A stretch of 21,966 bases of DNA from a virus. The stretch spans positions 1 through 21,966 of IMG/VR virus record IMGVR_UViG_3300024267_000035; one strand, 5' to 3'. Positions within the stretch are counted from its first letter, which is position 1. Each line of letters opens with the position of its first letter. Under the pieces are notes generated by a model. It did no database searches, was not told the origin of the DNA, and saw nothing but the letters and a program-made list of their open reading frames with translations. The position numbers and the translations under genes were made by a program. Positions 1 through 20,427 of the stretch are shown here, piece by piece.

Positions 1-40
1 CAAATGCTTCAAACAATTTTACGTGTTTCATTTTTGCCAT
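1..40 (-). CDS. Partial gene: N-terminus of a predicted capsid-targeted internal head protein
   Basis: Only the first 13 codons lie in the window; the gene continues beyond base 1. They read MAKMKHVKLFEAF. From the second Met (ATG at 31) the start is nearly identical to that of the next gene upstream (MKHVKLFKQY) and close to the one at 1177 (MKHIKLLESF). These match the T4 internal-protein capsid-targeting pattern of Met-Lys followed by spaced hydrophobic and aromatic residues. The leader is A-rich with no Shine-Dalgarno sequence, and an ATATATAATA box lies 17 bases upstream of the first ATG. Start at 40 or 31 is undecided. The function of the mature protein cannot be seen. Confidence 0.6.
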   Translation of the reverse strand, partial: MAKMKHVKLFEAF

Positions 41-57
41 TTTAATTGTTTTGTTTT

Positions 58-67
58 TATTATATAT
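58..67 (-). promoter_or_regulatory. ATATATAATA box, candidate late promoter
   Basis: Minus-strand ATATATAATA, 17 bases before the ATG at 40. The same ten bases occur upstream of several other genes in this window. It resembles the single-box late promoters of T4-like phages (T4 consensus TATAAATA), but the assignment is inference. Confidence 0.4.
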
Positions 68-75
68 CTTTAAAA

Positions 76-519
76 TCAATCTAATGATCCGTGCTTTCCT
101 GATGACATTGCTTTTCCAAAATTATCGCTACGTTCAGTTCTATATGAAATATATGCAGGATCAGAGTTGTGGTTTTTACCACCTGCCCCATAATAAGACG
201 ATAACAAATACGTGTGTATTTTTTCATCTTGTTTACCAAATGATTTATCTGCGTCTTTGACTAATTTAATTATTTTATTTATTTTAGAAGAATTAAATGG
301 TCCATTGATTTCTGTTGATTCTGGATTAAAAGAACTAGTTCCAGTTTGAACTTTAATAGATTGTAAAGTTTCAGGTATCCCTTTTATTAGTTTGATAAAA
401 TCTTTAAGGGAATCTGCACTACCTGACCATGAAGATTCTATCTTTTTACCATTAACCGTAGAATATGAATATTCTATTTTCTCATTAATATATTGTTTAA
501 ATAACTTTACGTGCTTCAT
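76..519 (-). CDS. Predicted capsid-targeted internal head protein (147 aa)
   Basis: The 147-residue product begins MKHVKLFKQYINE-K. This fits a T4-type capsid-targeting sequence ending in an (I/L/V)-x-E prohead protease site (INE, residues 11-13), so residues 14-147 would be the mature protein. The remainder is soluble, rich in Ser, Lys and Asn, with no membrane segment, signal peptide or recognised catalytic motif. The ATG follows the stop codon of the upstream gene after one base, so translation is probably coupled. The neighbours share the same N-terminal peptide, which implies a common fate, namely packaging in the head. The mature function is unknown; injection into the host at infection is inferred from T4 internal proteins. 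Confidence 0.7.
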   Translation of the reverse strand: MKHVKLFKQYINEKIEYSYSTVNGKKIESSWSGSADSLKDFIKLIKGIPETLQSIKVQTGTSSFNPESTEINGPFNSSKINKIIKLVKDADKSFGKQDEKIHTYLLSSYYGAGGKNHNSDPAYISYRTERSDNFGKAMSSGKHGSLD

Positions 520-520
520 T

Positions 521-1177
521 TTAGTGATTGTTCATTATATCTATTAAACTGTTAGCTGTTCCATTATTAAAAGAATAGCTTGAGTTTGCTAATCCAATTG
601 TACTATAATTAGTACCTGATGAATGATCAAACATAATTCCACCGTCTGATGAATTATATTCATCTAATACAAACATTAATTCGTAAATTTCTTGAAACAT
701 TTTATCTTTAACCTTTGAGTCAATTCCACCGCCACATGTAACTGCGATTAAAAATGTTCTTCTACCTCCTGGATTAAAGTTTGCTCTTCCTTCAATTTTG
801 CCGCCAACAGTAGATCTCATTGTACCTGACCATCCACCTGCTGCAGGAACTGAAGATTGTTCAATTTCATATTTCTTATATTTCTTAATTACTTTAGAAA
901 TAGCTTCTGCAAGTTTTACAGCATTTCTTCCTTGAAATATATCGTAAGAATCTTTTGCAGTATCACCTTGTACCATTAATGGTTCTTTATAACTTGGTAA
1001 TTTGCCTGATTTTAAAATAGATTCAACGTCGTTTAAAACTCCGCTATATGAATCTCCCCATTTTTCTACTGCTATTTTGGCAAGTCTAAGTTTGTCTTCT
1101 AGTTTAACTTTAATTCCTTTTTTATTAAAAGAAATTGATTCATTTAAAAAAGATTCAAGTAATTTAATATGTTTCAT
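521..1177 (-). CDS. Predicted capsid-targeted internal head protein (218 aa)
   Basis: The N-terminus MKHIKLLESFLNE-S is a second clear capsid-targeting-like peptide with a possible cleavage after LNE (residues 11-13). The rest is a soluble 200-residue protein with a Gly-rich central part (AAGGWSGTMRSTVGGKIEG, then TCGGG) and a Ser/Asn-rich C-terminus ending in NNH. I do not recognise a family. The start at 1177 is supported by the peptide and by an AT-rich leader that is repeated, 22 bases identical including the first Met-Lys codons, at the start of the next gene downstream. This suggests the two genes arose by duplication of a leader-plus-targeting cassette. Confidence 0.7.
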   Translation of the reverse strand: MKHIKLLESFLNESISFNKKGIKVKLEDKLRLAKIAVEKWGDSYSGVLNDVESILKSGKLPSYKEPLMVQGDTAKDSYDIFQGRNAVKLAEAISKVIKKYKKYEIEQSSVPAAGGWSGTMRSTVGGKIEGRANFNPGGRRTFLIAVTCGGGIDSKVKDKMFQEIYELMFVLDEYNSSDGGIMFDHSSGTNYSTIGLANSSYSFNNGTANSLIDIMNNH

Positions 1178-1207
1178 TTTTATAAATGTTTTTATTTTTA
1201 GTTAGAG

Positions 1208-1525
1208 TTATTTAGTCAGGATCCAGCCAATAGCCACATCACCAATAGTCTCTTCAATGTCTGCACTATTTTCCCAGAATTTTGGATCTGCTATACCATG
1301 GCGAGTACCTGATAAATACGTAATCACATATACTGGATATGAACCGTCTTTAACTAATTCCCATTGATATTCTTTTTTATAGTCAAGATCTTCTAGTTCT
1401 TCACCGATTTCTTCAAAAGAATCTGCTTTCTTTACTACCTTCTTTAAGGCCTTGAGCATTTTCGTAGTTTCTACGATTGTAGAATACTCATTTACAAATG
1501 ACTCAAATGTTGGTATGCGTTTCAT
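1208..1525 (-). CDS. Predicted capsid-targeted internal head protein (105 aa), start moved to 1525
   Basis: The open frame extends upstream to an ATG at 1552, but that start would overlap the preceding gene and put nine extra residues before the targeting peptide. The ATG at 1525 gives MKRIPTFESFVNE-Y, a capsid-targeting-like peptide with a VNE cleavage site, and has the same leader as the gene starting at 1177. I therefore choose 1525. The mature part (about 92 residues) has a Lys/Glu-rich helical stretch (residues 20-50) followed by a short beta-like segment, YPVYVITYLSG, and ends GWILTK. No family is recognised. It is probably packaged in the head with its neighbours. Confidence 0.7.
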   Translation of the reverse strand: MKRIPTFESFVNEYSTIVETTKMLKALKKVVKKADSFEEIGEELEDLDYKKEYQWELVKDGSYPVYVITYLSGTRHGIADPKFWENSADIEETIGDVAIGWILTK

Positions 1526-1545
1526 TTTTATAAATGTTTTTTTGA

Positions 1546-3147
1546 TTACCAAGCGTAATCGAAGGTTTTGATTTTATTAATTCTATCTTTGATATTCTTA
1601 GCGTAGTTTTTAGTTTCTCTTTCGTACCAACTCTCAGCTGAACCATATCTTTCTTTAGATTCTTCACCTTGTCTAACATAATCACAATATCTAGAATAGT
1701 CATCTAATATATTTGACATGTGATTAGAAGCATCTCTTAATTTAACAACAGATCCTCTTTTGTTTGTTCCGATCATGATTTCACCATATTTGGTTTTCTC
1801 ACCTTTTTTTAATCCATTTTGAATTTGTGCAGTTAATTCGTCAATTGCATCCGAGACCATTTTATCTAGTGGTAATTTAGCTGCGTTGTTCGCTAAAATA
1901 GTTTCGTATCTTTTCTTGTTTTCAGATTTAAAATCATCATGTGATTTAAATGCTGTAGCTCCTGATTTTGCAGCGTGTCTATCATTTCTTTTGTTTACAG
2001 TTGAATACTTTTGTTGTAATAAATCAACATTAATGACAATAGCTCTATCCGCAACTTCTGCAATTCTCTTTACGTTATAAAGTCCAGTTGCATCCCATCC
2101 TTTGTATTTTTTACCAATACCTATTGAATCTGTTGGGTTATTATCTACTTGTTTAAGATTTCTATCCCTGTTTTTTGAGCGGCCATATCTACTAGATGAA
2201 GACCAAACTTGATCATAGAATTTATTACCACCAGAAGTAACAGCTAATAAATAACCTCCACCTGGAATAACTTTATTGCCTTGATATGCATCATAAGGTG
2301 CATGTGGATTTTCTTTTTCATTGTCTGAAATATAGAAAATAATAGAATTTGATTGTTTTGCTTTATACGCGGTTTGTGGATCAGTAGTAATAAGATCTTC
2401 ATCTTGTACTTTATCTAATGCTACTTTAGTAGAACCATAAAATGCGCTTGCTAAGTGTTTGTCTAATTTACCAGATTTTCCTCTAAATAGCTCAGCAAGT
2501 CTTTGTGAACCAAATGCTTCAGTAACTAATTCGTTAGATAATGAATTTACGAATTCACTAAAGCTTTCATAAATAAATATTGTTTTGTTTTTTGGTGTTT
2601 CCATTTTTATATTTGATGTATTTTCTTTTACTAATTTTGGATTTTTATTCAAAAGCTCTTCCATGTCTATTTCAGTTAATGACATAAAACTATTTTCTCC
2701 ATACTTTTTAGATAATTTATCTGCTTTTTTAATATCTATCACTCTAGTTAAATCATCGTAATCTAAAGTTGCTACTCCAAATTCTCCAAACATTTCTTCT
2801 GCCATTGCATTTGCAATTTTAAAAGGAGTTGCCTTTTCATTAAGTGTAACTTCTGTTGATGGAGTAATTGATTTTAAGATTCTCATACCTGTTTTAGAAA
2901 GAGAGATACCATCTTCGCTTACATTAAAATATGGTGTGTTTCTTCTTAACCATCTTGTAGAATCAGTTGTCATTTCCTTAACAATACTTTTAAATTCTTC
3001 TTGGGAAATTTTACCATCTTTAATAGCTTCTAATACTTTATTTCTAATTTTAGCTGCTTTACCAACAGTTTTTGCAGGATGGTTTTCAGTATATTTTCTC
3101 TTAACTGTGATGTTTCTTTCTTCTAATGGTTCTTCGTTAATATCCAT
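1546..3147 (-). CDS. Composite protein with an internal capsid-targeting-like segment (533 aa)
   Basis: The protein appears to be two parts in one frame. Residues 1-181 are a charged helical region with an LSKTGMRIL stretch and no targeting peptide at the N-terminus. Residues 182-533 begin at an internal Met and read like another internal head protein: a hydrophobic/aromatic segment (IFIYESFSEFVNSL) followed by ELVTE-A, a prohead-protease-like site after residue 210. The C-terminal part contains a Gly-rich segment (VIPGGGYLLAVTSGG, about 291-305) and a conserved-looking KSGATAFKSHDD stretch (about 393-404), reminiscent of uncharacterised virion proteins of large phages. No enzyme motif was identified. 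The ATATATAATA box 20 bases before the first ATG supports the long form; the A-rich leader before Met182 supports a second start. Confidence 0.6.
   Translation of the reverse strand: MDINEEPLEERNITVKRKYTENHPAKTVGKAAKIRNKVLEAIKDGKISQEEFKSIVKEMTTDSTRWLRRNTPYFNVSEDGISLSKTGMRILKSITPSTEVTLNEKATPFKIANAMAEEMFGEFGVATLDYDDLTRVIDIKKADKLSKKYGENSFMSLTEIDMEELLNKNPKLVKENTSNIKMETPKNKTIFIYESFSEFVNSLSNELVTEAFGSQRLAELFRGKSGKLDKHLASAFYGSTKVALDKVQDEDLITTDPQTAYKAKQSNSIIFYISDNEKENPHAPYDAYQGNKVIPGGGYLLAVTSGGNKFYDQVWSSSSRYGRSKNRDRNLKQVDNNPTDSIGIGKKYKGWDATGLYNVKRIAEVADRAIVINVDLLQQKYSTVNKRNDRHAAKSGATAFKSHDDFKSENKKRYETILANNAAKLPLDKMVSDAIDELTAQIQNGLKKGEKTKYGEIMIGTNKRGSVVKLRDASNHMSNILDDYSRYCDYVRQGEESKERYGSAESWYERETKNYAKNIKDRINKIKTFDYAW
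2602..2604 (-). other. Candidate internal start codon (Met182) of the 533-aa gene
   Basis: The ATG at 2604 is preceded by AAATATAAAA, much like the ATTTATAAAA before the starts at 1177 and 1525, and lies seven codons before the targeting-like segment. Starting here would give a 352-residue protein with a near-N-terminal targeting peptide, the usual layout for this gene family. Confidence 0.4.
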
Positions 3148-3167
3148 GTGATAATATTATTGTTTTT

Positions 3168-3177
3168 TATTATATAT
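3168..3177 (-). promoter_or_regulatory. ATATATAATA box, candidate late promoter
   Basis: Minus-strand ATATATAATA, 20 bases upstream of the ATG at 3147 and overlapping the stop codon of the ligase-like/NMNAT gene. Spacing is like that of the box at 58-67. Promoter function is inferred from recurrence and position. Confidence 0.4.
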
Positions 3178-5017
3178 TCTTGATAAATTGATCGAATGTT
3201 AATGTTGCTATTTCAGCCTCTTCTAAAACCCCCATAGAATCTTCCAGTTTAGATTTTAATTCATTATACATATCATGTACTGGCTTAGGCGTTAGCTTCT
3301 TAAATAGCTTCTCATCGCCATCTAACATTGCGTTTCTTACTTGTGTTGCTGATATATTCTTACCAGTTCTTGGTATTTCATAAAGTCCAAAATCAGTTCT
3401 AACACCAAGATCTTCTCTATATTCTGGTTTATCTACTTGGAATCCATAAGTTTTCATTCTATCGCTTCCGGTTCCCCATAATACTGGTTCATATTTTGGC
3501 CTCATTGCATTAAACATAGTGTCAATACCACCTGTTGGAATTACGAAAACTTCTTCAATTGGATATTTAGATTTTAATCTATTGATCATTTCAACTTGAG
3601 TTTCCTCATCATAAGGTCTCTTAAATGCATCTTCTTTTTTCTTGTTCTTGGCTTTTACTAATAAGATTACAACTGGGTGGCCATTTTGCTTATGAATAGT
3701 TTCAACTACTTTAGCATGACCCAATGTAAAGGGCTGGAATCTACCAACAAACATATTTACTAATTTCTTACCATGTTCTGGATAATCTACCTTTAACGCT
3801 TCTAAAACAGGAGATTCATTATATTGTAATTTTTGATTTAACAAATATGATTTAAAGTTAAGAACATCATTTTCATTTGTTTTTGCCATTACTATTGCAT
3901 CTATACTATCAACTATTTCATTGATCTGTGACATTAAATCTTTATTAATAATATCTGTTTCTTTGTTTCTCTTTTTTCTAAAACTACCTAAAGCTATTTT
4001 ATACAATTCTGATAAAACTTTATTTTGTATTAATGATAGTGTTTTTTCATTTGTGATAAAGGCTGGGTTTAATTTAAAACCTTTGTTTTCTGAAAAATCT
4101 GCAGAATTAAAGCTAGCTCCTACATATTTAGAAGCATTCTTTTCAATGTATGCATTGAAGATGTGTGAAATTAATTCAATATACCTTTCTGCTGAATCTT
4201 CTGATTCTAAAGAAATTTCTTCAAGATTAAACTCTGTAATATACTCTACTAAATCTAATATAGCGATCTGATACATGTCAGATGGCTCTCTTTTTTGAAT
4301 ATCCTTTCTGTCAAATCTTTCAAGTTTAAAACTTTTTGGATTTTTACCTTCATAGAAGTTTACTATTAAACCGTCTATGTCATTATCTAAATTAGAATTT
4401 AAAGTTGGATTATTAAGACCTATGTTGAATATATTAAATATGGCTCTTGTAAAAGATTGATCTTTGAATTTGATTTTAAAATCAGAATCAGAAAGTTCTA
4501 GTAATCTAATTAAGTCATCTTTTTGATTTGATTGTAAAACTCCTTGAAATATAACAGGTGGTTTTTGTACCCCTAATAATTCTGCCCACTTATTTAAGAT
4601 CTGTGGATCTCTAATAACTTTTTTAATTTGTGTAGGGTTTTTAGGATTTAATATTTGTATGTGTGTTAGTATTAGATGGTTTTTAGGAAGACTTTCGTAT
4701 TCGATATCTACTGTTTTGTTGTCTATCATGTAGTCAAATCCGAATTTCCAATCATGTGGCATATCTTCTTTTACATCTTTAGGAATAGCCTTAAAGTAAT
4801 TAATACCATTTTCATAGTATCTTACCATAGTTCTATCTACTTTATCCATTTTATGTTTAGAACCGCTTTTAAAATATTCATAACCGGTACTAGTACTTTT
4901 AACATGAAACGAAGATGCTTGTATTTTTTCCGATACAACACATGTTAATTTCAACATTGAATTAAAGTCATTAATGTTAGTTGATTGAAAATATGTTCTT
5001 AAATTTTGTAATGCCAT
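3170..5017 (-). CDS. Ligase-like domain fused to nicotinamide-nucleotide adenylyltransferase domain (615 aa)
   Basis: The C-terminal third (about 418-590) is a nucleotidyltransferase of the NadM/NadR NMN-adenylyltransferase type. GRFQPFTLGH (425-434) is the adenine-nucleotide-binding GRFxPxHxGH-like motif and ISATQVR (555-561) is the family's ISxTxxR motif. It probably makes NAD from NMN and ATP, though another substrate is possible. The N-terminal part resembles the DNA/RNA ligase nucleotidyltransferase fold: IDGLIVNF (214-221) looks like motif IV and SFKLER (229-234) like motif V, but I find no clear KxDG motif I, so it may be degenerate. The C-terminus, LTFDQFIKNI after VLEEAE, looks like the neighbours' N-terminal capsid-targeting peptide. 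The start overlaps the upstream stop as TAATG, so the two genes are probably translationally coupled. Confidence 0.65.
   Translation of the reverse strand: MALQNLRTYFQSTNINDFNSMLKLTCVVSEKIQASSFHVKSTSTGYEYFKSGSKHKMDKVDRTMVRYYENGINYFKAIPKDVKEDMPHDWKFGFDYMIDNKTVDIEYESLPKNHLILTHIQILNPKNPTQIKKVIRDPQILNKWAELLGVQKPPVIFQGVLQSNQKDDLIRLLELSDSDFKIKFKDQSFTRAIFNIFNIGLNNPTLNSNLDNDIDGLIVNFYEGKNPKSFKLERFDRKDIQKREPSDMYQIAILDLVEYITEFNLEEISLESEDSAERYIELISHIFNAYIEKNASKYVGASFNSADFSENKGFKLNPAFITNEKTLSLIQNKVLSELYKIALGSFRKKRNKETDIINKDLMSQINEIVDSIDAIVMAKTNENDVLNFKSYLLNQKLQYNESPVLEALKVDYPEHGKKLVNMFVGRFQPFTLGHAKVVETIHKQNGHPVVILLVKAKNKKKEDAFKRPYDEETQVEMINRLKSKYPIEEVFVIPTGGIDTMFNAMRPKYEPVLWGTGSDRMKTYGFQVDKPEYREDLGVRTDFGLYEIPRTGKNISATQVRNAMLDGDEKLFKKLTPKPVHDMYNELKSKLEDSMGVLEEAEIATLTFDQFIKNI
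3173..3202 (-). other. Targeting-like peptide at the C-terminus of the NMNAT fusion
   Basis: The last ten residues, LTFDQFIKNI, resemble SFDQFSTE and TFESFVNE, the N-terminal peptides of the products starting at 8609 and 1525. They follow an acidic VLEEAE segment. A C-terminal packaging signal is inferred, not established. Confidence 0.35.
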
Positions 5018-6291
5018 TATCTTCCGTATTTTATGATACCCATTAATTGATTAATGGCTGCAAACGTACCTGTTAATTTCATTGTTTTTCCTTTGTACAC
5101 AAAAACTATTCCTTCAGTTGGTATAATAGATTCTATTCCTCCAATTCTATCTAATCTGGCAAGTTCAGCTTCTACTCTTGCAATTTGAGCTTCACCTCCG
5201 GTTTTTTTAATAGCTTCAGCTTCTGTTCTTATTTGATTATGTAATCTTTGCATTTCCTTGTCTGGATTTGCTGCTACAAAATTAGAAGCATTTTTAAGAA
5301 TTATAGATCCTAGTTCTAAGAATAAATCTTCAAACGGTCTAATGTTTTCTTTATATTTCTTTTTAACATCTTCTTTGTCAAATTTCTTAATAAGAGATGC
5401 TTTATCTTTACCTAACGATTTGTCTAAAGATCTCATGTTTAAAGTCTTCTTATCACCATAAGCCCATCTTAATAATAAACCTTCTTTATAATCTTGTTCT
5501 GTATCTGGAAAGTTTCTATCTATAGTTTCTCTCCACCACATTTCGTGATATCTTGAAACTGAATCAGTATCTAATAAACCATAACGATCTCTTAGTGCTT
5601 CAATCTTTTTGATGAATTTAGATTGATTTTTTTCGAAATCAATATCTTTTCCTAATTTTAATATTTGAGGGGGAATTATTGTAAATGTTTTTTGAACATC
5701 AGCATCAACTTCTTTTAATGCGGAAACCAGCTCTCCTGCTATTTTTTGCTCTCCAATAATATTTCCATTTCCATCAGTTTCCTTAATATCATGGAATTGT
5801 AAAACATCTCTTTCATAATAAATAACATTAGGATTCTTAGAGTAAATTAATTCCATATTAATAAAGTTCTTACCTTCATTAAATATAGACTGATCCTTCA
5901 TCTTTGGAAGAGCTTCATTTAGGTCTTTAGCAGCAAACACGTATGTTTCTCTTACTAAGGGAACTTCATGCTGTTCAAACATTTTTATAATACCGGCTAA
6001 ATCGACTGGGCTAATTAATTGGCCTTTATTTCTAGAAAATAGAGTAACTCCGTTTCTTACGGTGGCAAATAAATTTTGGCCGTCTGTTTTTTCTGTTGCA
6101 ACCTCTTCAAAGTTTAATTCTCCTTGAAGACCAGCTTCAACAATTTTTTTAAAGTCACCGAATGTTAAATCTTTTTCATCAAATGGATGTGACATATGGC
6201 CCGCTGCTCCACCTTCTAAAATAAGGGACTCAGTTGTACTAGTACGTACACTCTCAGTTATAAATTCATTGAAATTAGTAAAGATCTTCAT
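5017..6291 (-). CDS. Ligase-superfamily nucleotidyltransferase with capsid-targeting peptide (424 aa)
   Basis: K68-T-D-G fits motif I (KxDG), whose lysine is adenylylated in ATP-dependent DNA/RNA ligases and related enzymes. INMELIY (about 144-150) is a plausible motif III, EGIVF (393-397) motif IV and the Lys pair in KTMKLTG (402-408) motif V. Together they indicate a DNA/RNA ligase-superfamily nucleotidyltransferase. Whether it seals RNA or DNA cannot be told. The N-terminus, MKIFTNFNEFITE-S, is a clear capsid-targeting-like peptide with a possible cleavage after ITE (11-13); a second possible site is LILE-G (26). The enzyme is therefore probably packaged and injected. GGAAGHMSHPFD (27-38) recalls uncharacterised proteins of T4-like phages. 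It is followed at once by the ligase-like/NMNAT fusion gene, suggesting joint function. Confidence 0.65.
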   Translation of the reverse strand: MKIFTNFNEFITESVRTSTTESLILEGGAAGHMSHPFDEKDLTFGDFKKIVEAGLQGELNFEEVATEKTDGQNLFATVRNGVTLFSRNKGQLISPVDLAGIIKMFEQHEVPLVRETYVFAAKDLNEALPKMKDQSIFNEGKNFINMELIYSKNPNVIYYERDVLQFHDIKETDGNGNIIGEQKIAGELVSALKEVDADVQKTFTIIPPQILKLGKDIDFEKNQSKFIKKIEALRDRYGLLDTDSVSRYHEMWWRETIDRNFPDTEQDYKEGLLLRWAYGDKKTLNMRSLDKSLGKDKASLIKKFDKEDVKKKYKENIRPFEDLFLELGSIILKNASNFVAANPDKEMQRLHNQIRTEAEAIKKTGGEAQIARVEAELARLDRIGGIESIIPTEGIVFVYKGKTMKLTGTFAAINQLMGIIKYGR

Positions 6292-6311
6292 AAGGTATTT
6301 ATCTTATTTTA

Positions 6312-8609
6312 TTATTGTCCTAACGAGCTAGTTAGCATACCAACTGCAGTACCATAATCTCCATCTGCTTTAGATAAAATACCGTCTATAACTTTTTTAG
6401 ATTTAGCTTCGTCAAAATCTTCTCCAAATGCTTTTTGTAAAACAGTTACCGCATATTCTTCAAATTCTTCATCTGAATTAACTTCAGCTTCAGTAACTAC
6501 TGATTCTGCAACGTTGCTTTCCCACCATGATTCAAGTTTTTCAAATTCTGAAGTGCCCATATTAGATCTCATAAAATCTTCCACATCATCATAATCATCT
6601 TTTTCATCTTGATAATAACCAGGAGTATCGATATAATCTTTACCCATTATCTTTTTAATTTGAGCTTCTCCCATTCCATCAATTTCTATTAAGAATTTTT
6701 CGAAATCTGTTGTGTTTTTAAAGCCTTTAGCTTCAGTAACTACTGATTCATTATATAAGTGAACATAGTTACTGTTTTTTTCAGAATAAATTGACTTGAT
6801 TTCAAATTCTTTTTGTCCTTTGGTATAATATGCTTTAAAGAATAAATTTTCATCAAACTCTCCAAAGAAATGATCTGATTTGCCAATAAAGAATTCTGCG
6901 TTTGGATAAATTTCAAGAACCTCTTCTTGTGTAGTTGCTTTTAAAACAGCCTCGTCAAACTCTTTAACAAATTTAGCTTCAGTAACCTCTGATTCACTTA
7001 ATGAATTTCTTAAACCACAATATTCACATTCTACAGTTCCGTCTTTGTCAATTTCTTTGTATGCATGTCCTTTTTTATTTGAACATTTTGGGTGTGATTC
7101 AGTAACTACTGATTCTTCAATATATTCTTCTAGACCAGCGTCGTCCCAACCATCTTCAGATGCTAAAACTGCTTGCAGATCTTCTCTTGAACCTGTCATT
7201 TCAACCTCTGGCCAACCACTTGGTCCACTAGGATCTAAAACTTTCATTTTAACGTTATGTTTCTTTAAAAGTTTTTTAAGTATCTTTGATTTAGGATCCA
7301 TTGCATCCATTACTACAGTAGCTTCATTATAACTTACAATGTCAGAATATTTAATCTCATGTTCTTCTCCGTCTTGATCTAATCCAAAGATTGTTTTATC
7401 TCCCCACATATCATCATTGTTATCGTTGCCATTACCATATGCATAAATAACATACTCTTGTCCATTTCCTAATTGAATCATGCCATCATCTGCTTTCATA
7501 GCTTTCATTAAAGACTTTTTATCATATGATTTCTCATTGATAGCATCTCCTTCGTCATACGCAAATGACTCAAACATGTTAAACGCATTTAATAAAGCTT
7601 GACCTGAAGCTTCTTCTTTAATACTCTCTAAATAAAGAGCAGTACCTTCAACAATTCCGATTCCTGACCAACCAGCTGCATTTGCAAGGTCACTATAATG
7701 TTTATCTAAAATTCTTTTTGTAGTAGTAGCACCTATTGTTAAAAAGTGATTACCTAAACCTGCTACTTTTAATTCAAATGAACCTATTCTACCTTTAATA
7801 TTCTTAGATATAACTTTCTCTCTGTGGAAATTAGCATCTGTCATCGCTTCTTCAAAAAGATACTTAATACAACCTAATGTACCTACTTTGTCCATTGCAC
7901 CAAAATCTGTTAGTTTCTTAGTAAATAAATTTTTATAAACTGTCAAAACTTTTTTTGCGTCTCTTTTATATTGAACTGAAATAGCCTCATTTACTGAAGT
8001 AGTTAAAGATTCAAACGCTGGATAAACATCATCATATCCTTTACCGTAAATGTCTGCCATTAACCATTCTTTGTTGGCTTCATCCCATAAGTATACGAAT
8101 TCAGCACCGCCGCCATCAGCAACATCCCTTAGATATTTAGATATATTAGCAACTTTACCCTTAGACGCTGTAAAGTTCCCGTAGAAATTAATCTTCTTAA
8201 CATCTTTATCTAAACCCGAACTGTCTCCATTCTTAAGAATAAAATCTACATTTTTACCATCTTTAAAAGTTGAAGTTATAATAGGTAATATGTTTTCAGG
8301 ATATGAATCATAATGCATATATACAGAAGTGATATTTCCTTTTTTATCGATTTTACCAATTTGTCCTCTAGTTCCTTCTTCAATTAAAACAGTTGCTTCG
8401 TTAATCTCAGCGCCTCTTAACTTAGTAAAAAATTCGATTCTTTGCTCTTCAGTTAATTCTTTGATAGAAGTAACTTTAAATTCACCAAGTAAATTTTTAT
8501 ATGTTTCTGCTTCAGTACTTCTTTTAGTAGAGTTTTCTTCTTCTACTTGTCTAGATCTATTGATTTGTGATTCAGTAGAAAACTGATCAAAAGATTTTAA
8601 TTTATACAT
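6312..8609 (-). CDS. Predicted capsid-targeted modular polyprotein (765 aa)
   Basis: The N-terminus, MYKLKSFDQFSTE-S, is a capsid-targeting-like peptide. The protein is punctuated by sequences matching the (I/L/V)-x-E prohead-protease rule: INE-A (71), VNE-A (208), INE-K (359) and VTE-A/S (504, 544, 626, 708). The last four lie in a nearly invariant ESVVTEA linker. Cutting there would release modules: a large region containing VYMHYDSYPENI (97-108, like a phage/bacterial family of unknown function), a small zinc-ribbon-like piece (505-544, with C509, H515, C528, C531), two 82-residue acidic modules that are not obviously homologous, and a 57-residue C-terminal module. No enzyme was identified. 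It lies between the recombination genes and the ligase-like gene, with an ATATATAATA box 31 bases upstream. Confidence 0.65.
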   Translation of the reverse strand: MYKLKSFDQFSTESQINRSRQVEEENSTKRSTEAETYKNLLGEFKVTSIKELTEEQRIEFFTKLRGAEINEATVLIEEGTRGQIGKIDKKGNITSVYMHYDSYPENILPIITSTFKDGKNVDFILKNGDSSGLDKDVKKINFYGNFTASKGKVANISKYLRDVADGGGAEFVYLWDEANKEWLMADIYGKGYDDVYPAFESLTTSVNEAISVQYKRDAKKVLTVYKNLFTKKLTDFGAMDKVGTLGCIKYLFEEAMTDANFHREKVISKNIKGRIGSFELKVAGLGNHFLTIGATTTKRILDKHYSDLANAAGWSGIGIVEGTALYLESIKEEASGQALLNAFNMFESFAYDEGDAINEKSYDKKSLMKAMKADDGMIQLGNGQEYVIYAYGNGNDNNDDMWGDKTIFGLDQDGEEHEIKYSDIVSYNEATVVMDAMDPKSKILKKLLKKHNVKMKVLDPSGPSGWPEVEMTGSREDLQAVLASEDGWDDAGLEEYIEESVVTESHPKCSNKKGHAYKEIDKDGTVECEYCGLRNSLSESEVTEAKFVKEFDEAVLKATTQEEVLEIYPNAEFFIGKSDHFFGEFDENLFFKAYYTKGQKEFEIKSIYSEKNSNYVHLYNESVVTEAKGFKNTTDFEKFLIEIDGMGEAQIKKIMGKDYIDTPGYYQDEKDDYDDVEDFMRSNMGTSEFEKLESWWESNVAESVVTEAEVNSDEEFEEYAVTVLQKAFGEDFDEAKSKKVIDGILSKADGDYGTAVGMLTSSLGQ
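6487..7115 (-). repeat. Four dispersed 20-bp repeats encoding ESVVTEA linkers
   Basis: The plus-strand sequence gcttcagtaactactgattc occurs exactly at 6487-6506 and 6730-6749. One-base or two-base variants are at 6976-6995 and 7096-7115. On the coding strand each encodes E-S-(V/E)-V-T-E-(A/S). Identity at DNA level between modules that are otherwise unrelated suggests recent duplication or recombinational shuffling at the linkers. Confidence 0.85.
7014..7097 (-). other. Zinc-ribbon-like module within the polyprotein
   Basis: Residues 505-532 contain C509, H515 and a C528-x2-C531 knuckle (ECEYCG). The module is flanked on both sides by VTE cleavage-like linkers, so it could be released as a free peptide of about 40 residues. 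Zinc binding is inferred. Confidence 0.45.
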
Positions 8610-8640: not shown

Positions 8641-8650
8641 TATTATATAT
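8641..8650 (-). promoter_or_regulatory. ATATATAATA box, candidate late promoter
   Basis: Minus-strand ATATATAATA, 31 bases upstream of the polyprotein start at 8609. It overlaps the last codons of the uvsW-like gene (GAT ATA TAA). Its position at the border between the recombination genes and the presumed late head genes fits a class switch in transcription. Confidence 0.45.
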
Positions 8651-10151
8651 CTCCTTCAAAATCTACATTTTTTATATCATACTTAAACTTCTGTTCCTTG
8701 TAGATCCTTTGTCTTTCTTTGGAGTGTCTTATTAGATAGTTGTCCCAATCAGGAGAACTTAAATCATCTACAAAATCTATAATATTGACCGAGTCTTTAG
8801 AGCTGTGTTGCCTTAAACCTCTACCGATAGATTGTCTAATAATTACTTCCGATTTAAATGATTCTGTGAAGAATATGTTGTGGATTTTCTTGATGGATAT
8901 ACCAGTTGAGAATGTACCATATGAAGCGACAATGACGACTTGGTTTCCAGCTTCCATTTTCTTTTTGTGTTCTTCCCTAATATCTTTATCAATTCCACCA
9001 TCAACATAATAAACAGATTTATCACTCTCTTGTCTGAGTTTTTCATATATTTTTTTACCATGTTCAATTCTATGAAAAAGAACTAAACTATTACCCTTAA
9101 CCCTGGAGATAATACTTGTTATAAAATTAAGTCTTCCAGGTGAATTGATCACATAGTTTTGCTCAAATTTAAAAACGTCTTTACTTTCATATCTATTCTG
9201 GGACATTTCTCTAAATGCGTCTTTTGTAGATTGAGGTGCATAGTCCATTTTAATTACCTTTACTTTACAACCTGCTATATGCCCTTCGTTTTGTAAATAA
9301 TGTGCACTTATTTCTGTAATTAATGGACCAGTATATGCCATTAGAGTTAATCTATCTAATGTGCCTTCTTTTGGAATAGTTCCAGATAAACCATATTTAT
9401 AATCTGCATTAATACACTTTTGTAAAATAGTTTTAATAGAGGCTGATTTTGCTTTGTGTGTTTCATCAACAATTACTGCATCAAATTCTGCAAAATATGC
9501 TTTATCTTTTTTAACAAGTGATTGATATGTTCCAATAATAACATTCCTACCTGGCCTTAATTTTTGACCACTGTATATTTGCTGTACCTTAATATCTATT
9601 GCATTTCTATAATTATAGTCTAGAAAATCTTCACTCGCTTGTACAACTAATGATACATTGGGTACAATAAATAAAATCTTTTTTGCTTTTTGTTGTTCTA
9701 GTAAATATGATACTGTTAAGAATGATATCAGTGTTTTACCCGCAGAAGTTGCAAGCTCACTTAAGCATCTTCTAAATTTTAGTATATTAAATGCTGCCTC
9801 TATTTGATAATCTCTTGGAGTTATCTCTGACTTTTCGAAAAAGTCTAAAGCCCATTTTGTAAATTTTTCTTGATTAATATTGGTATCAAACATGTCAGTA
9901 ATACCATTGAGTTTAAACTCAAATTTATATTCTTTACATATCTGCATGACTTCTCTCCATAATCCTGAAGGAATCCATTTATCATCTTTTATATATGAAA
10001 CATATCCATCCCATAAACCCTTTTTAACCAAAGGATTAAATCGCCATGAATCAATTCTTCTATTTAAAGAAATATTGAGTTGTTCCAGTTCTAATTCAGT
10101 TGCTTCATCAATACGTAGCAACTGTTTATTTTCAGTTAAACTAAGCTCCAC
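8643..10151 (-). CDS. uvsW: UvsW-like ATP-dependent DNA helicase (502 aa)
   Basis: This is a superfamily 2 helicase. RDYQ (113-116) is the adenine-recognition element, ATSAGKT (134-140) Walker A, VDETH (228-232) Walker B, LSGT (255-258) motif III and QSIGRGLRQ (440-448) motif VI. The length equals that of T4 UvsW (about 500 residues), and the T4 protein has the same unusual TSAG P-loop. In T4, UvsW unwinds R-loops and branched DNA, ending origin-initiated replication and favouring recombination-dependent replication. The next gene upstream looks like UvsY, as in T4. The start is GTG at 10151; the in-frame stop lies only six codons upstream and there is no early in-frame ATG. An out-of-frame ATG overlaps the GTG. 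Confidence 0.9.
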   Translation of the reverse strand: MELSLTENKQLLRIDEATELELEQLNISLNRRIDSWRFNPLVKKGLWDGYVSYIKDDKWIPSGLWREVMQICKEYKFEFKLNGITDMFDTNINQEKFTKWALDFFEKSEITPRDYQIEAAFNILKFRRCLSELATSAGKTLISFLTVSYLLEQQKAKKILFIVPNVSLVVQASEDFLDYNYRNAIDIKVQQIYSGQKLRPGRNVIIGTYQSLVKKDKAYFAEFDAVIVDETHKAKSASIKTILQKCINADYKYGLSGTIPKEGTLDRLTLMAYTGPLITEISAHYLQNEGHIAGCKVKVIKMDYAPQSTKDAFREMSQNRYESKDVFKFEQNYVINSPGRLNFITSIISRVKGNSLVLFHRIEHGKKIYEKLRQESDKSVYYVDGGIDKDIREEHKKKMEAGNQVVIVASYGTFSTGISIKKIHNIFFTESFKSEVIIRQSIGRGLRQHSSKDSVNIIDFVDDLSSPDWDNYLIRHSKERQRIYKEQKFKYDIKNVDFEGDI

Positions 10152-13862: not shown

Positions 13863-14231
13863 TTACAGTTTTTTACCTAGAGCTGCACCTAATGCGGCAC
13901 CTACAAGTCTAGAAGTTAATAAATCGTAAAACACACCTTTTTGAATACCAAGAACTTTTGCTAGCATTTTACCAATAGATTTCCCTAAAGCAAAACCGGT
14001 AAGTCCACCAATAATTGATCCAAAGAAACCTTCATTAGTCATCTCTTCATTAAGTCTCTCAATATCATAAGAACCATCTTCATTTTGATATTCTGAAGCA
14101 AAAGATTCTAATGCTGCATCTATTTTCTCTTCTAACTCCGGAGTCCAAGTTTCTTGAAGACCTTCATTAATAAGTTCCAAATCCTGTTCGTTAACAGCGT
14201 TTTCAATTAAATATGTATTAAATGTTTTCAT
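13863..14231 (-). CDS. Glycine-zipper protein with capsid-targeting-like N-terminus (122 aa)
   Basis: The N-terminus MKTFNTYLIENAVNE recalls the T4 targeting sequence (MKTYQEFIAE) more than any other gene here. Possible prohead-protease sites are VNE-Q (15) and INE-G (23). An acidic middle (25-65) is followed by GFFGSIIGGLTGFALGKSIG (68-87) and GAALGAALGKKL (111-122), glycine-zipper segments that form tightly packed or oligomeric membrane helices. The protein could be packaged and then insert in the host membrane on injection, or be a structural or holin-like protein. The ATATATAATA box is only one base before the ATG, too close for an ordinary leadered promoter. Confidence 0.65.
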   Translation of the reverse strand: MKTFNTYLIENAVNEQDLELINEGLQETWTPELEEKIDAALESFASEYQNEDGSYDIERLNEEMTNEGFFGSIIGGLTGFALGKSIGKMLAKVLGIQKGVFYDLLTSRLVGAALGAALGKKL

Positions 14232-17683: not shown

Positions 17684-19048
17684 TTATTGCATAAATTGTT
17701 TTTCGCGATCCTCTTCAAGATTCTCAACGTTGTGTACTATTATACCATTTGCAAAATAAACATCAGCCTCTTCTACGTTAAAGGAATATGTTGTAAATCT
17801 CTCAGGTACCGCTATCAATTCTATAGATGTAATATCTACCCATTCATTGTCTTCATTTAAGAGCCAATCAGAATTAACAATATCTCTTACTTGTTTGAAG
17901 TAAATATCTCCTACAGTATCTTTTACTAGGACAGGATGTTCTTCTGTGATTTTTAATAATCCATTATTGAAGTCATAATATTTATCGAATTCTAAAACAG
18001 TAACATTAGTAACAGTCGTGTTTGTATACACAGATCCAAGAGTTTCTTCTCTTCTTTTCCATGATTTCCACTCTCCATCTAAACTAAATCCATCAAAATT
18101 AACAGATAATAAGTTATCTCCTACAACTACATCTTCTACTAATTTAGTTTCACCATTAGCTAACGTAAGTAATTCTCCAGCTACGTGACATCCGCCTCCG
18201 CCTCCGCCGCCACTATACGATGGCGTTGAAGATGGAACTGGTGTTGCAGTTGGATTAGGAATTGGTGTTGCAGTTGGTCCCGAACCTGAACCAGAGCCTG
18301 AACTATTAGTTGGACTTGGCGTAGCTGTATTTTTAGGACCTGAATCTGCTTCAAGCGTACAATACCAAGTATCTGATGTGCCATATGGTGCACTTACTGT
18401 ACAGTTAACATTCAGATCAGCAATTGGTGAAAAAGTTTTTGTAAACCTATAAGTTCCAGTAAATACGTTCGAATTGTTTGTTACAGTTGGTCCAGTTTGA
18501 TTTGAACCACTAACACCATTGGTACTAAAATTACTTGGCGCAGCTGGACTAGTGTTACCATCTGCTACGATTGTATATGATACATCAGTATTAAGACTAC
18601 TAGGTGCAAATATAAATCTATTACCAGACGTTGTATTAGTTGCAAATGTAAACGTTGGGTTTGGACCAGGTGTTGGTTGAACAGTTGGAACTGGCGTTGC
18701 AGTTGGTGGAACTGGCGTTGCAGTTGGTGGAACTGGCGTTGGATTTGGTACGTTCGTCGGAGCTGGCGTTGCAGTCGGAACCGAAGTCGGAACTGGCGTT
18801 GCAGTTGGATCAGGCACACCTACACCCTCAGCTTGATTCACAGTTATAGTGTCAACCGTTGTTGAATTAGCATGTCTAACAGTAAGTGTCGCACTACGTG
18901 CATCACCTGTGTTTTCTTGAAGTGTAATTGTCCAGTCATCGGAGTTAACAGAAACTCTTGTTATAGTAATCCAATTAGGAGTAGCATCCCATGAATAGGA
19001 TGTACTTACCGGTGTAATTGAGACAGTTCTTGTATAATCGTAGCTCAT
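17684..19048 (-). CDS. BACON-domain / Pro-Thr-repeat / Hint-domain virion protein (454 aa)
   Basis: Residues 1-75 are a BACON-type domain: strand pattern with W20, W26, W39, the NTGDARSATLTV stretch and a closing ITVNQ. BACON domains occur in Bacteroidota surface enzymes and in crAss-like phages and may bind glycans or mucin. A PTATPVP-type linker (78-130), a beta region with two Cys (131-240), a second Ser-Gly/PTATP linker and seven Gly (280-286) follow. The C-terminus is a Hint domain: C287 opens block A (VVVGDNLLS closes it), ITEEH371 is block B and FANGIIVHN440 block F. Residue 441 is Val, so protein splicing is unlikely, whereas cleavage at C287 or N440 is possible. The next gene upstream is a collagen-like fibre with the same linker repeats, so both are probably tail-tip or fibre proteins. 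Confidence 0.75.
   Translation of the reverse strand: MSYDYTRTVSITPVSTSYSWDATPNWITITRVSVNSDDWTITLQENTGDARSATLTVRHANSTTVDTITVNQAEGVGVPDPTATPVPTSVPTATPAPTNVPNPTPVPPTATPVPPTATPVPTVQPTPGPNPTFTFATNTTSGNRFIFAPSSLNTDVSYTIVADGNTSPAAPSNFSTNGVSGSNQTGPTVTNNSNVFTGTYRFTKTFSPIADLNVNCTVSAPYGTSDTWYCTLEADSGPKNTATPSPTNSSGSGSGSGPTATPIPNPTATPVPSSTPSYSGGGGGGGCHVAGELLTLANGETKLVEDVVVGDNLLSVNFDGFSLDGEWKSWKRREETLGSVYTNTTVTNVTVLEFDKYYDFNNGLLKITEEHPVLVKDTVGDIYFKQVRDIVNSDWLLNEDNEWVDITSIELIAVPERFTTYSFNVEEADVYFANGIIVHNVENLEEDREKQFMQ
17729..18190 (-). other. Hint (hedgehog/intein-type) autoprocessing domain
   Basis: It runs from Cys287 to Asn440 of the 454-aa protein. There is no homing endonuclease insert (154 residues only), it stands at the end of the protein and leaves only 14 residues after Asn440. 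This matches bacterial intein-like (BIL) domains rather than an intein interrupting a conserved gene. Confidence 0.8.
18681..18812 (-). repeat. 21-bp tandem repeats encoding PPTATPV linker
   Basis: The plus-strand unit ctggcgttgcagttggtggaa begins at 18691 and recurs at 18712, with a diverged copy at 18733 and related PTATP-coding units on either side. The encoded Pro/Thr/Ala chain is a stiff disordered spacer between BACON and the central domain. Copy number is likely to vary between relatives. Confidence 0.8.
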
Positions 19049-19086: not shown

Positions 19087-20427
19087 TTAATAACTATTAG
19101 TTCCCGAACCTGTTCCAGAGCTAGTTCCTCCGCTTCCAGTTCCCGAACTAGTTCCTCCTCCGCCTAAGCTTTCACCATCATCTTCGATAATTTCGTTATC
19201 ACCACCTGAACCTGTTCCTGATCCTGTTCCTGAACCACCACCACTAGTTGGCGTTGCAGTTGGATTTGGCCCTGATCCACTGCCTGATCCACTAGTTGGC
19301 GTTGCAGTTGGATTTGGCCCTGATCCACTGCCTGATCCACTAGTTGGCGTTGCAGTTGGATTTGGTCCCGAACCACTACCCGATCCACTAGTTGGGGCTG
19401 GGGTTGGTTGTGCCGTTGGATTTGGTGTTGCAGTCGGATTAGGCACACTTGAACTTGGTGACCCGTCACTATTTGCATTAATGTTTCCACCTCCAATAGA
19501 AATAGTGTCAGTTACTACTGGACTTCCATCAGCATATGCATCAATGTTTCCACCTATAATTCCAATACTATCTGCTACTCCGCTACCACAATCTGTACAC
19601 AATTCTCTCCACTCTGGTGAACCACCGTTGTAATAATAAGCTTCAGCGATATCTAAATCACTATTAAATCTTATCATACCTACTTGTGGATTTAATGGTC
19701 TTTGTCCAGTTCCACCATAAGGCAACCTTACGTAACCTTTAAATTCAGCATTTATATCTACATCCAATATACCATTACCAGAAGTTTCTAAACTAAGGTT
19801 ATTTGATCCAGTTGTTTTAATTGTTACGCCTTCACCTTGAAAATAAGCATTAGAACTTGTAGCAACTAAAGATATCTTATTAGTAGTTGCGCCGAACTCT
19901 ATGTTACTGCTACCAAAATTATTTTTAAAAGCAAATCTTTTATAAGCTCCACTTTCTTCACTAGTTAATACTAAACCATGAACAGAGTCATGAAATAATT
20001 TTAGATAATTTGCAAAAACACCATCGGTTGCTATTGTTAATCTTGCATTTGTTGAAATATCACCGTCATTAGAATCTTCTTCAAATGTAGAATCCCCTAA
20101 CCAAATTATAGGAAGTTGTAAATCAGTTCCTCTTTTTGGTTTTAGAATAGTAACCTCATTTTGGCCATCTGAATTAGCATCTAATTCAACTTTATACCAT
20201 GGACTATCAGTTGCCCCTGAATCTCCTTTTAAACCAGTATTACCAATCTCACCTTTTTCTCCTTTTTGTCCAGTAGAACCAACTTGACCTTGATCTCCTT
20301 TTTGTCCCTTGGGACCGACAGGTCCACCTCCATTTGCCAATATTTGGTCAAAGTTATAGTTGATTTTTTCAAACTTAATAGAGTTCGAATCACTCGGGTG
20401 TAGTATCTCTTGAATGTTAATTGCCAT
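19087..20427 (-). CDS. Collagen-like tail fibre / fibritin-like protein (446 aa)
   Basis: The N-terminus MAINIQEILHPSDSNSIKFE, followed by NYNFDQILANGGG, is a virion-attachment-type segment that I recall from tail fibre proteins of T4-like phages. Thirteen Gly-X-Y triplets (35-73) follow, predicting a trimeric collagen-like rod. A beta region (about 77-270) holds LPYGGTGQRPLNPQVGMIRF and a CTDCGSG motif, typical of fibre tips. Two imperfect copies of an 18-20-residue unit (around DSIGIIGGNIDAYADGSP) come next. Finally there is a low-complexity tail of NPTATP/SGSGSGSGP repeats and Gly-Ser-Thr ending GTNSY. The tail resembles the linkers of the BACON-Hint protein encoded just downstream, suggesting that the two co-assemble or exchange sequence. 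Confidence 0.7.
   Translation of the reverse strand: MAINIQEILHPSDSNSIKFEKINYNFDQILANGGGPVGPKGQKGDQGQVGSTGQKGEKGEIGNTGLKGDSGATDSPWYKVELDANSDGQNEVTILKPKRGTDLQLPIIWLGDSTFEEDSNDGDISTNARLTIATDGVFANYLKLFHDSVHGLVLTSEESGAYKRFAFKNNFGSSNIEFGATTNKISLVATSSNAYFQGEGVTIKTTGSNNLSLETSGNGILDVDINAEFKGYVRLPYGGTGQRPLNPQVGMIRFNSDLDIAEAYYYNGGSPEWRELCTDCGSGVADSIGIIGGNIDAYADGSPVVTDTISIGGGNINANSDGSPSSSVPNPTATPNPTAQPTPAPTSGSGSGSGPNPTATPTSGSGSGSGPNPTATPTSGSGSGSGPNPTATPTSGGGSGTGSGTGSGGDNEIIEDDGESLGGGGTSSGTGSGGTSSGTGSGTNSY
19243..19386 (-). repeat. Three 48-bp tandem repeats in the fibre gene
   Basis: Units begin at 19243, 19291 and 19339 on the plus strand (each actagttggcgttgcagttg...), with a partial fourth from 19387. 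Each encodes the 16-residue NPTATPTSGSGSGSGP. The first two are identical; the third has a few silent changes. They are in frame and so are part of the protein. Confidence 0.9.
20209..20325 (-). other. Collagen-like Gly-X-Y rod, 13 triplets
   Basis: Residues 35-73 of the 446-aa protein follow an unbroken G-x-y periodicity (GPK GQK GDQ ... GLK GDS GAT), with Lys-Gly-Asp/Glu-rich triplets that favour a trimer without hydroxyproline. Confidence 0.85.

Follow-up and report, generated by a model that had tools for sequence, protein, structure and literature searches.

A T4-like address tag with a predicted cut site on the probable head-cargo genes of a T4-related phage

IMG/VR record IMGVR_UViG_3300024267_000035, analysed here over its entire length (positions 1-21,966, hereafter the window), carries a group of genes whose products share a short peptide, the tag, that resembles the capsid-targeting leader of the T4 internal proteins. 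The tagged products are very probably capsid-targeted, protease-trimmed proteins of the T4 type, and we consider it highly likely that the tagged genes of the window encode head cargo together with core proteins of a marine T4-related phage. In the proposed mechanism, an aromatic pair within the tag would direct a protein to the prohead core; a gp21-type protease would then cleave at [I/L/V]-x-E and release the mature protein inside the head, and the released proteins would enter the next host together with the DNA. The two elements would be used in a modular way, both of them at the N-terminus of most tagged products, the cut site alone between the modules of polyproteins, and cut site plus address at the C-terminus of a product of 615 amino acids (aa). 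Cleavage, packaging and injection in this phage, and the action of the cargo enzymes early in infection, are what we infer from this model; the presence of tag-bearing proteins in virions has been shown by others in a distant relative, cyanophage S-CREM2.

The tag in the window, in T4 and in S-CREM2 virions

The first-pass annotation had described six N-terminal peptides of one kind and a seventh, internal copy. All of these were found, on the minus strand, the internal copy being FIYESFSEFVNSLSNELVTE within the 533-aa open reading frame (ORF) at 2518-2577. Two further copies had been missed, namely an eighth tag, MKTFNTYLIE at 14202-14231, which lies outside the region 1-8609 covered at that time, and a C-terminal copy, LTFDQFIKNI, in the 615-aa product. 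The tagged genes and their elements are as follows.

1-40, minus strand: 5' end of a partial tagged gene truncated by the window edge; starts MAKMKHVKLFEAF
76-519, minus strand: 147-aa tagged protein, basic, function not assigned; tag MKHVKLFKQYINE at 481-519
521-1177, minus strand: 218-aa tagged protein, function not assigned; tag MKHIKLLESFLNE at 1139-1177
1208-1525, minus strand: 105-aa tagged protein, function not assigned; tag MKRIPTFESFVNE at 1487-1525
1546-3147, minus strand: 533-aa two-part product; own start MDINEEPLEE, no N-terminal tag
2518-2577, minus strand: internal tag and predicted cut site of the 533-aa ORF, FIYESFSEFVNSLSNELVTE|A
3170-5017, minus strand: 615-aa product with a ligase-like N-terminal part (motifs by eye) and a cytidylyltransferase/NMNAT-like C-terminal domain
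3173-3229, minus strand: C-terminal mirror tag of the 615-aa product; predicted cut site VLE|E, then address LTFDQFIKNI
5017-6291, minus strand: 424-aa tagged protein with an RNA-ligase-like nucleotidyltransferase domain at about residues 62-211; tag MKIFTNFNEFITE at 6253-6291
6312-8609, minus strand: 765-aa tagged predicted polyprotein; tag MYKLKSFDQFSTE at 8571-8609
13863-14231, minus strand: 122-aa tagged glycine-zipper-like protein; tag MKTFNTYLIE at 14202-14231

A chance origin of these peptides was rejected on the basis of motif enrichment and profile counts. The motif [FYL]xx[FY][ILVMS]xE, which was written after the data had been seen and was sought within the first 17 residues, is present in 6 of the 22 genes called in the window. 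Internal windows predict 0.19 such genes (P 2.5e-8), and 500 shuffles gave 0.15 on average and never more than 3. The motif is likewise enriched in three long relatives, with 9 of 170 genes (0.66 expected), 8 of 207 (1.45) and 7 of 206 (0.83). A nine-column profile made from 50 distinct tags of eleven contigs gives N-terminal scores of 15.1 to 22.6 for six tagged window products and at most -3.5 for every other product; the tag of the 122-aa product, scoring 18.4, is retained in all 72 members of its family. When this profile was run over the proteins of the window and its relatives, 198 of 1,798 unique N-termini scored at least 5, compared with 35 of 7,520 internal windows; this count is partly circular because the profile tags were drawn from those contigs. 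Independent tests of the profile come from T4 and S-CREM2. The mature parts of the tagged proteins in the window and its relatives form 40 clusters, a few of which are probably chance hits. The earlier statement that the mature parts are unrelated to one another needs one correction, as the partial edge gene and the C-terminal domain of the 533-aa product are paralogues. In contig G013 the edge gene is present in a longer form, with the start MAKMKHVKLFEAFVASQKLNE|AFSSQILRDLF, and its product is 41% identical to that domain over 198 positions (E 3e-44).

For T4, the unchanged profile was applied to 31 of the 34 annotated genes in the 16 kilobases (kb) around the internal-protein loci, with three genes cut at the ends omitted. 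The genes ipII and ipIII scored 13.8 each and ipI scored 5.5, while the remaining 28 were below 0. According to the review PMC9026906, T4 gp21 cleaves after L/I-x-E and ten residues of IPIII are enough for packaging; T4 genetics summarised there indicates that targeting is influenced by residues 4 and 7 of the capsid-targeting sequence and processing by residues 8 and 10. The leader MKTYQEFIAE of T4 has Y4/F7 and I8/E10 at these positions, and the same positions are conserved in the marine tags described here.

The head genes of the relatives carry the tag as well. A small acidic core protein encoded directly upstream of gp21 is tagged in contigs G001, G002 and G014 (MKIIKTFEDFITE, MKIIKTFEDFLTE and MKIIKTFNDFISE) and more weakly in G003 (MKHLKTFKNYSNLTE), and a coiled-coil protein encoded after gp23 in G001 is likewise tagged. 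Both gp21 (PF03420) and gp23 (PF07068) were present in 11 of the 11 relatives searched first. Of 12 further contigs, 3 contained gp21, among them G014. No gp21 was found in the 22-kb window record itself; G014, which is 94-97% identical to the window over the shared parts, encodes gp20 (Portal_T4, PF07230, E 3e-72), the tagged core protein, the gp21-type protease and gp23.

Virions of S-CREM2 were found by mass spectrometry to contain 52 proteins (PMC10665884, Table 3), and in that paper the SAM hydrolase, kinase, cytidylyltransferase and Cas9-like nuclease are called non-structural and possibly encapsulated. With annotated starts, 6 of the 52 detected proteins had a tag score of at least 3, compared with 2 of the 167 that were not detected (P 0.0026); at a score of at least 5 the counts were 4 and 1, respectively (P 0.012). 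For the undetected ORFs, admitting every start within the first 40 residues brought 3 of 174 up to 3 (P 0.0055). Scores below 3 for 46 of the 52 detected proteins are expected for shell and tail proteins. Among detected proteins, the cytidylyltransferase (MKNFSSFLTE|AD), the kinase (MKRFDAFLTE|EE) and the SAM hydrolase (MKDFDSFLEE|FD) have the three highest scores. The best C-terminal tag belongs to the virion-detected Cas9-like ORF12, which ends in KTFRDFLN and by eye also bears LRFASFMAE near its N-terminus; ranks 2 and 3 belong to undetected proteins. The cytidylyltransferase gene of S-CREM2 is the third after uvsW, and the cluster of the window likewise follows uvsW. Both this protein and the 615-aa product match PHROG families 395 and 3041; in a direct BLASTP comparison of the two the match was not significant (E 0.12). 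As far as the available text of PMC10665884 goes, no targeting signal is proposed, and the terms 'capsid targeting' and 'N-terminal' are absent from it; nor does that text report cleavage of the tagged proteins. Taken together, the match to T4 ipI-III, the tagged core protein, the presence of gp21, gp20 and gp23 in G014 and the enrichment in S-CREM2 virions support the T4-like capsid-targeting reading already given in the first-pass annotation.

Predicted cut sites, the C-terminal tag and an apparent exchange of cargo

The address and the cut site occur in separate combinations. Tags hold the aromatic pair and a cut site, linkers between modules hold a cut site alone, and the mirror tag of the 615-aa product holds a cut site followed by the pair. 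This division matches the separation mapped in T4.

Cut sites alone are predicted in the 765-aa product; four of them, all in its last third, read ES(V/E)VTE followed by A or S.

7098-7100, minus strand: predicted cut site after E504, ESVVTE|SHPK
6978-6980, minus strand: predicted cut site after E544, ESEVTE|AKFV
6732-6734, minus strand: predicted cut site after E626, ESVVTE|AKGF
6489-6491, minus strand: predicted cut site after E707, ESVVTE|AEVN
7986-7988, minus strand: weaker predicted cut site after E208, TTSVNE|AISV, close to a homology-block border
7533-7535, minus strand: weaker predicted cut site after E359, GDAINE|KSYD

In the window, the strict pattern ES[VIL][VIL][TN]E[ASGK] is confined to the two polyproteins, with 3 occurrences in 1,298 aa and none in the remaining 5,851 aa; in G003 the corresponding counts are 3 in 2,224 aa of polyproteins and none in 54,125 aa elsewhere. 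Shuffling of the 765-aa sequence gave a mean of 0.001 and at most 1. The pattern is absent throughout G001 and G002, the polyproteins of which use looser sites. Across 50 non-redundant polyproteins of the two families, 34.9% of 1,741 homology-block borders, which are mutually dependent, lie within 8 residues of [VIL][TN]E[ASGK], compared with 10.7% of random positions (at most 12.7% in 200 draws). In locus L067, the counterparts of segments 33-209, 206-347 and 491-548 of the 765-aa product follow one another in the opposite order. The domain behind the internal tag of the 533-aa product is encoded in G001 by a gene of its own, whose N-terminal tag (MKHKFLFESFEEFTESLNE|SFAS) corresponds to that internal tag, and relatives of the 533-aa product start with a METFNEFLGE-type tag. 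These sequence patterns give the 765-aa and 533-aa products the appearance of polyproteins whose modules have been shuffled, and on the simplest reading the protease would free the modules after packaging. No Pfam peptidase above cut-off was found in either product. A structure model of the 533-aa C-terminal domain (predicted local distance difference test, pLDDT, 78) gave helical-bundle look-alikes only and no useful match.

The 615-aa product has no N-terminal tag and ends in ...GVLEEAEIATLTFDQFIKNI. When 905 C-termini were scored with the N-terminal profile minus its last two columns, this family held ranks 1-8 and 10. Of its 79 members, which include the window's product and show 30 distinct ends, 78 have the C-terminal aromatic pair and 77 a cut-like site that lies 6-16 residues from the C-terminus, mostly [VLM]xE|S in the relatives; the member in L012 has neither pair nor cut site, and a second copy in L019 has the pair only. 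The mirror tag lacks the tag's own Glu, and its order of cut site and then address is, by analogy, what a C-terminal leader would need. T4 Alt is trimmed at its C-terminus as well (PMC9026906). DUF3008-like proteins also end in such sequences, KTFEAFSFDIVKKRK in G014 and KTFNEFKTEYK in the 462-kb phage LR756500; of 10 DUF3008-like proteins picked out by the pattern of their starts, 3 have a C-terminal tag, and the membership of one of these proteins (L033) is doubtful. The high-scoring C-termini of two products of another family, by eye sugar-epimerase-like (G003 107240-108169 and G019 2466-3398) look like chance.

Cargo appears to have been exchanged behind a retained leader. In both G013, which spans the entire window at 99.9% identity and represents an almost identical virus, and G014, the gene after the 147-aa gene opens with the leader MKHVKLFEAFVASQKLNE. 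The two contigs align as far as this leader with 97.2% DNA identity (686 positions), and the match breaks off at most 1 base from where the codon of the predicted cut Glu ends. The proteins encoded behind the leader differ: in G013 it is the paralogue of the 533-aa domain, in G014 a 257-aa product unrelated to it, with no significant match to the 533-aa product and no Pfam hit. Furthermore, the 105-aa gene of the window, whose product had no relative among the loci compared, is absent from G014, where the DNA that precedes it in the window precedes the 218-aa gene instead; within the window, the stretch ACATTTATAAAAATGAAAC precedes both genes. The same leader with different cargo, together with the relocated upstream DNA, points to such an exchange.

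Tagged genes share a further element, which in the window is found at two starts.

6296-6303, minus strand: GATAAATA, late-promoter-like, 4 nucleotides (nt) upstream of the 424-aa start codon
14236-14243, minus strand: GATATATA, late-promoter-like, 4 nt upstream of the 122-aa start codon

Of 76 tagged genes, 20 have GAT[AT][AT]ATA exactly 4 nt before ATG, compared with 18 of 1,023 untagged ones (P 6e-15, with orthologues included and thus non-independent), and the element also precedes the core gene. As the element is common to tagged genes and the core gene, the tagged genes are probably expressed together with the head genes, and judging from its closeness to the start codon the mRNA may be almost leaderless. 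The T4-type late promoter TATAAATA was not over-represented in four relatives or in the whole window; GATATATA was found instead.

The tag may imitate a repeat in the scaffold, a proposal made from sequence and for this clade only. The gp21-type protease of G014 (L126:14393-16474) is fused to an acidic, repeat-bearing, scaffold-like region of about 500 residues. Fusions of gp21 and scaffold in the clade contain 3 to 6 copies of [FY]xx[FYH][IL]xE, often 14 residues apart, and the fusion had the highest repeat count in 7 of 7 contigs, with other proteins at 1 or fewer (first 20 residues excluded). Shuffles of four of the fusions gave means of 0.05-0.07 repeats and a maximum of 2. The nine-column profile scored the scaffold repeats modestly, with best values mostly of 2.4 to 4.1. 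Scaffold imitation was rejected for T4, where gp22 is without such a repeat.

Predicted cargo functions and competing explanations

It is clear from sequence that the 615-aa product has a cytidylyltransferase/NMNAT-like domain. This C-terminal domain matches PF01467 above the cut-off (E 1.9e-9), the family is matched by 20 of 20 members, and T-L-G-H and I-S-A-T-x-x-R, presumably the (H/T)xGH and ISxTxxR motifs of CTP_transf_like, are invariant in all 20. Its N-terminal half shows by eye ligase-like motifs (EK31-x-x-[AG]-S, with the G of motif I often A; G-F-[DE]-Y; DGLI-x-N-F; K-L-E), which found no support in the libraries. The homologue in LR756500 (L162:9298-11259), with N at the position of the motif I lysine and no C-terminal tag, is possibly a decayed enzyme.

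With moderate confidence, the 424-aa product is predicted to be ligase-like. Its structure model (pLDDT 65) had T4 RNA ligase 1 as top Foldseek match, a weak one (E 0.046), and ranks 1-25 of its VIA list are RNA or DNA ligases by title, aligned at residues ~62-211 with Z of 5.1-6.5 (Z below 8 being weak). The sequence K68-T-D-G (motif I, KxDG) is invariant in 20 of 20 aligned family members, and, judging by the ranges aligned, K68 could coincide with the lysine that entries 8uch and 5tt6 name in their titles. Sequence searches of Pfam, PHROG and PDB gave no meaningful match. A relationship between the ligase-like parts of the 424-aa and 615-aa products was considered and dropped, as profile comparison gave no match. 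In the Microcystis phage Mel-JY01 (L163:7302-9221) and in LR756508 (L164:6483-9230), a cytidylyltransferase domain is fused to a domain of the 424-aa type, and these fusions suggest that the two domains are functionally linked. Among the tagged proteins of relatives, Nudix and ATP-grasp domains were matched above Pfam cut-offs and HAD-like and AAA-like domains below them. A role of the cargo in early RNA or nucleotide repair, or in counter-defence, would be a guess. The 122-aa protein, present in 72 loci with a weak glycine-zipper match, could by its sequence act at the membrane during DNA entry.

Several observations weigh against the capsid-targeting reading. Some of the S-CREM2 proteins detected in virions that have no assigned function are also untagged, and two undetected proteins score 6.8 and 3.5. 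In this phage the N-terminus of the 533-aa product is untagged (score -9.6), part of the 765-aa family retains the aromatic pair and has lost the cut Glu, and the 615-aa homologue of LR756500 has no C-terminal tag. Tenacibaculum phage PTm1 yielded, over the first 100 of its 225 kb, a single borderline start with a score of 5.0, and the cytidyltransferases of HTVC008M and Mel-JY01 have untagged starts; genes near the cytidyltransferases of HTVC008M and of phage C48C1 score 7 to 16.

Some tagged products may in fact be core parts and not effectors. Taken further, the tagged proteins could be mainly scaffold and core that gp21 shreds, as it does T4 gp22, gp67 and gp68 during maturation, with few or none reaching the next host and the repeated sites serving destruction. 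Such an arrangement would fit the same tag on the core protein of relatives and on the G001 coiled-coil protein, and the acidity of the 765-aa product (isoelectric point 4.7), which resembles that of the core protein and the gp21-scaffold fusion; T4 core proteins are moreover cleaved into many fragments that leave the head (PMC9026906). We regard it as unlikely, however, since homology-block borders cluster at cut sites and modules are swapped and permuted, unlike in a scaffold of fixed shape, since tagged products include enzyme-like ones (RNA-ligase-like, Nudix and ATP-grasp above cut-offs, HAD-like below), and since S-CREM2 virions contained tagged enzymes.

A very improbable explanation is that the shared N-terminus has a role unrelated to capsid targeting, for instance as a conserved translation start region or as a seed for recombination before late genes. 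The GATATATA element that often lies 4 nt before the start codon of tagged genes, the near-identity in DNA of some tags (for example MKHVKLFEAF in G001) and the cargo swapped behind a retained leader between G013 and G014 would all agree with it, but the peptide also occurs internally and C-terminally without a start codon, tags differ in their codons, and the profile retrieves T4 ipI-III and the virion enzymes of S-CREM2. Capsid targeting with proteolytic trimming thus remains the preferred reading. A more far-reaching version of it, in which movable address and cut elements form one sorting code, the address imitates the aromatic heptad repeat of the phage's own protease-scaffold fusion so that one repeat would suffice for a protein to co-assemble into the core and then be released by cleavage, virion-delivered enzymes are swapped like cassettes behind a retained leader, and the ligase and NMNAT-like products form an RNA/nucleotide repair kit, is offered tentatively, and as a whole we lean slightly against it.

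Source virus and comparison with known systems

All real-looking genes of the window lie on the minus strand. The uvsW helicase gene (8643-10151, phrog_16, E 8.6e-82) adjoins the tag cluster, and a primase, a gp32-type single-strand binding protein and a RuvC-like resolvase are also encoded nearby; these neighbours indicate that the virus is a T4-related phage. The first 8,000 bases had no DNA-level relative among 50,697 phage records, and relatives of the 615-aa product were found at 78 IMG/VR loci. Contig G012, also from an almost identical virus, matches the window at 99.9% identity except for its first 1,337 bases. Judged by gp23 of G014, the closest records are the 462-kb metagenomic phage (49%), the Lak phages of Prevotella and phages of Tenacibaculum, so that the host may be a member of the Bacteroidota. 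In the tail region, a 454-aa protein (17684-19048) has a BACON domain and proline-threonine repeats, with a weak intein-splicing/Hint-like match at its C-terminus, and a fibre-like 446-aa protein (19087-20427) has collagen-type G-x-y repeats and a PNPTATP/SGSG repeat tract at its C-terminus.

Many head-delivered proteins of T4-like phages are unidentified for want of recognisable homologues. A short address tag would list candidates from sequence alone, would account for enzymes whose presence in virion proteomes, as in S-CREM2, is otherwise puzzling, and may provide packaging tags for phages other than T4; C-terminal tags and polyproteins that are cut apart would be two new rules. Searches of open-licence papers on capsid targeting, internal proteins and polyproteins turned up, by title and abstract, nothing on this group, on polyproteins cut by a prohead protease or on C-terminal tags, and a search for the T4 leader as letters found no paper. 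Leader mining and cargo diversity are themselves already known in T-even phages, which have at least ten internal proteins, many of their ip genes having been identified via the leader, and T4 Ip1-3 share the leader only (PMC12373910).

Among known systems, IPI, IPII, IPIII and Alt of T4, the first three of which the profile retrieves, resemble the tagged products in bearing an N-terminal aromatic pair and [IL]-x-E on unrelated proteins. The present set differs from the T4 internal proteins in its 40 cargo clusters, enzyme-like cargo, predicted polyproteins and C-terminal mirror tag. S-CREM2 is like the window in having tagged enzymes, and its SAM hydrolase, kinase and cytidylyltransferase were found in virions, whereas this cytidylyltransferase is far shorter than the 615-aa product (286 aa) and too diverged from it for BLASTP. 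The ejection proteins of phiKZ and SPN3US are also inner-head proteins with propeptides cut after x-x-E by a gp21-related protease. Their motif is S/A-x-E or A-x-E, in contrast to [ILV]-x-E here, and the propeptides of SPN3US are mostly far longer and all N-terminal except the protease's own. Polyvalent proteins such as DarA and DdrB of P1 are, like the polyproteins predicted here, large and multidomain, and some are packaged in the head and processed; in PMC5512222 their domains are proposed to be freed by embedded peptidases, whereas the modules described here are separated by sites of the prohead-protease type.

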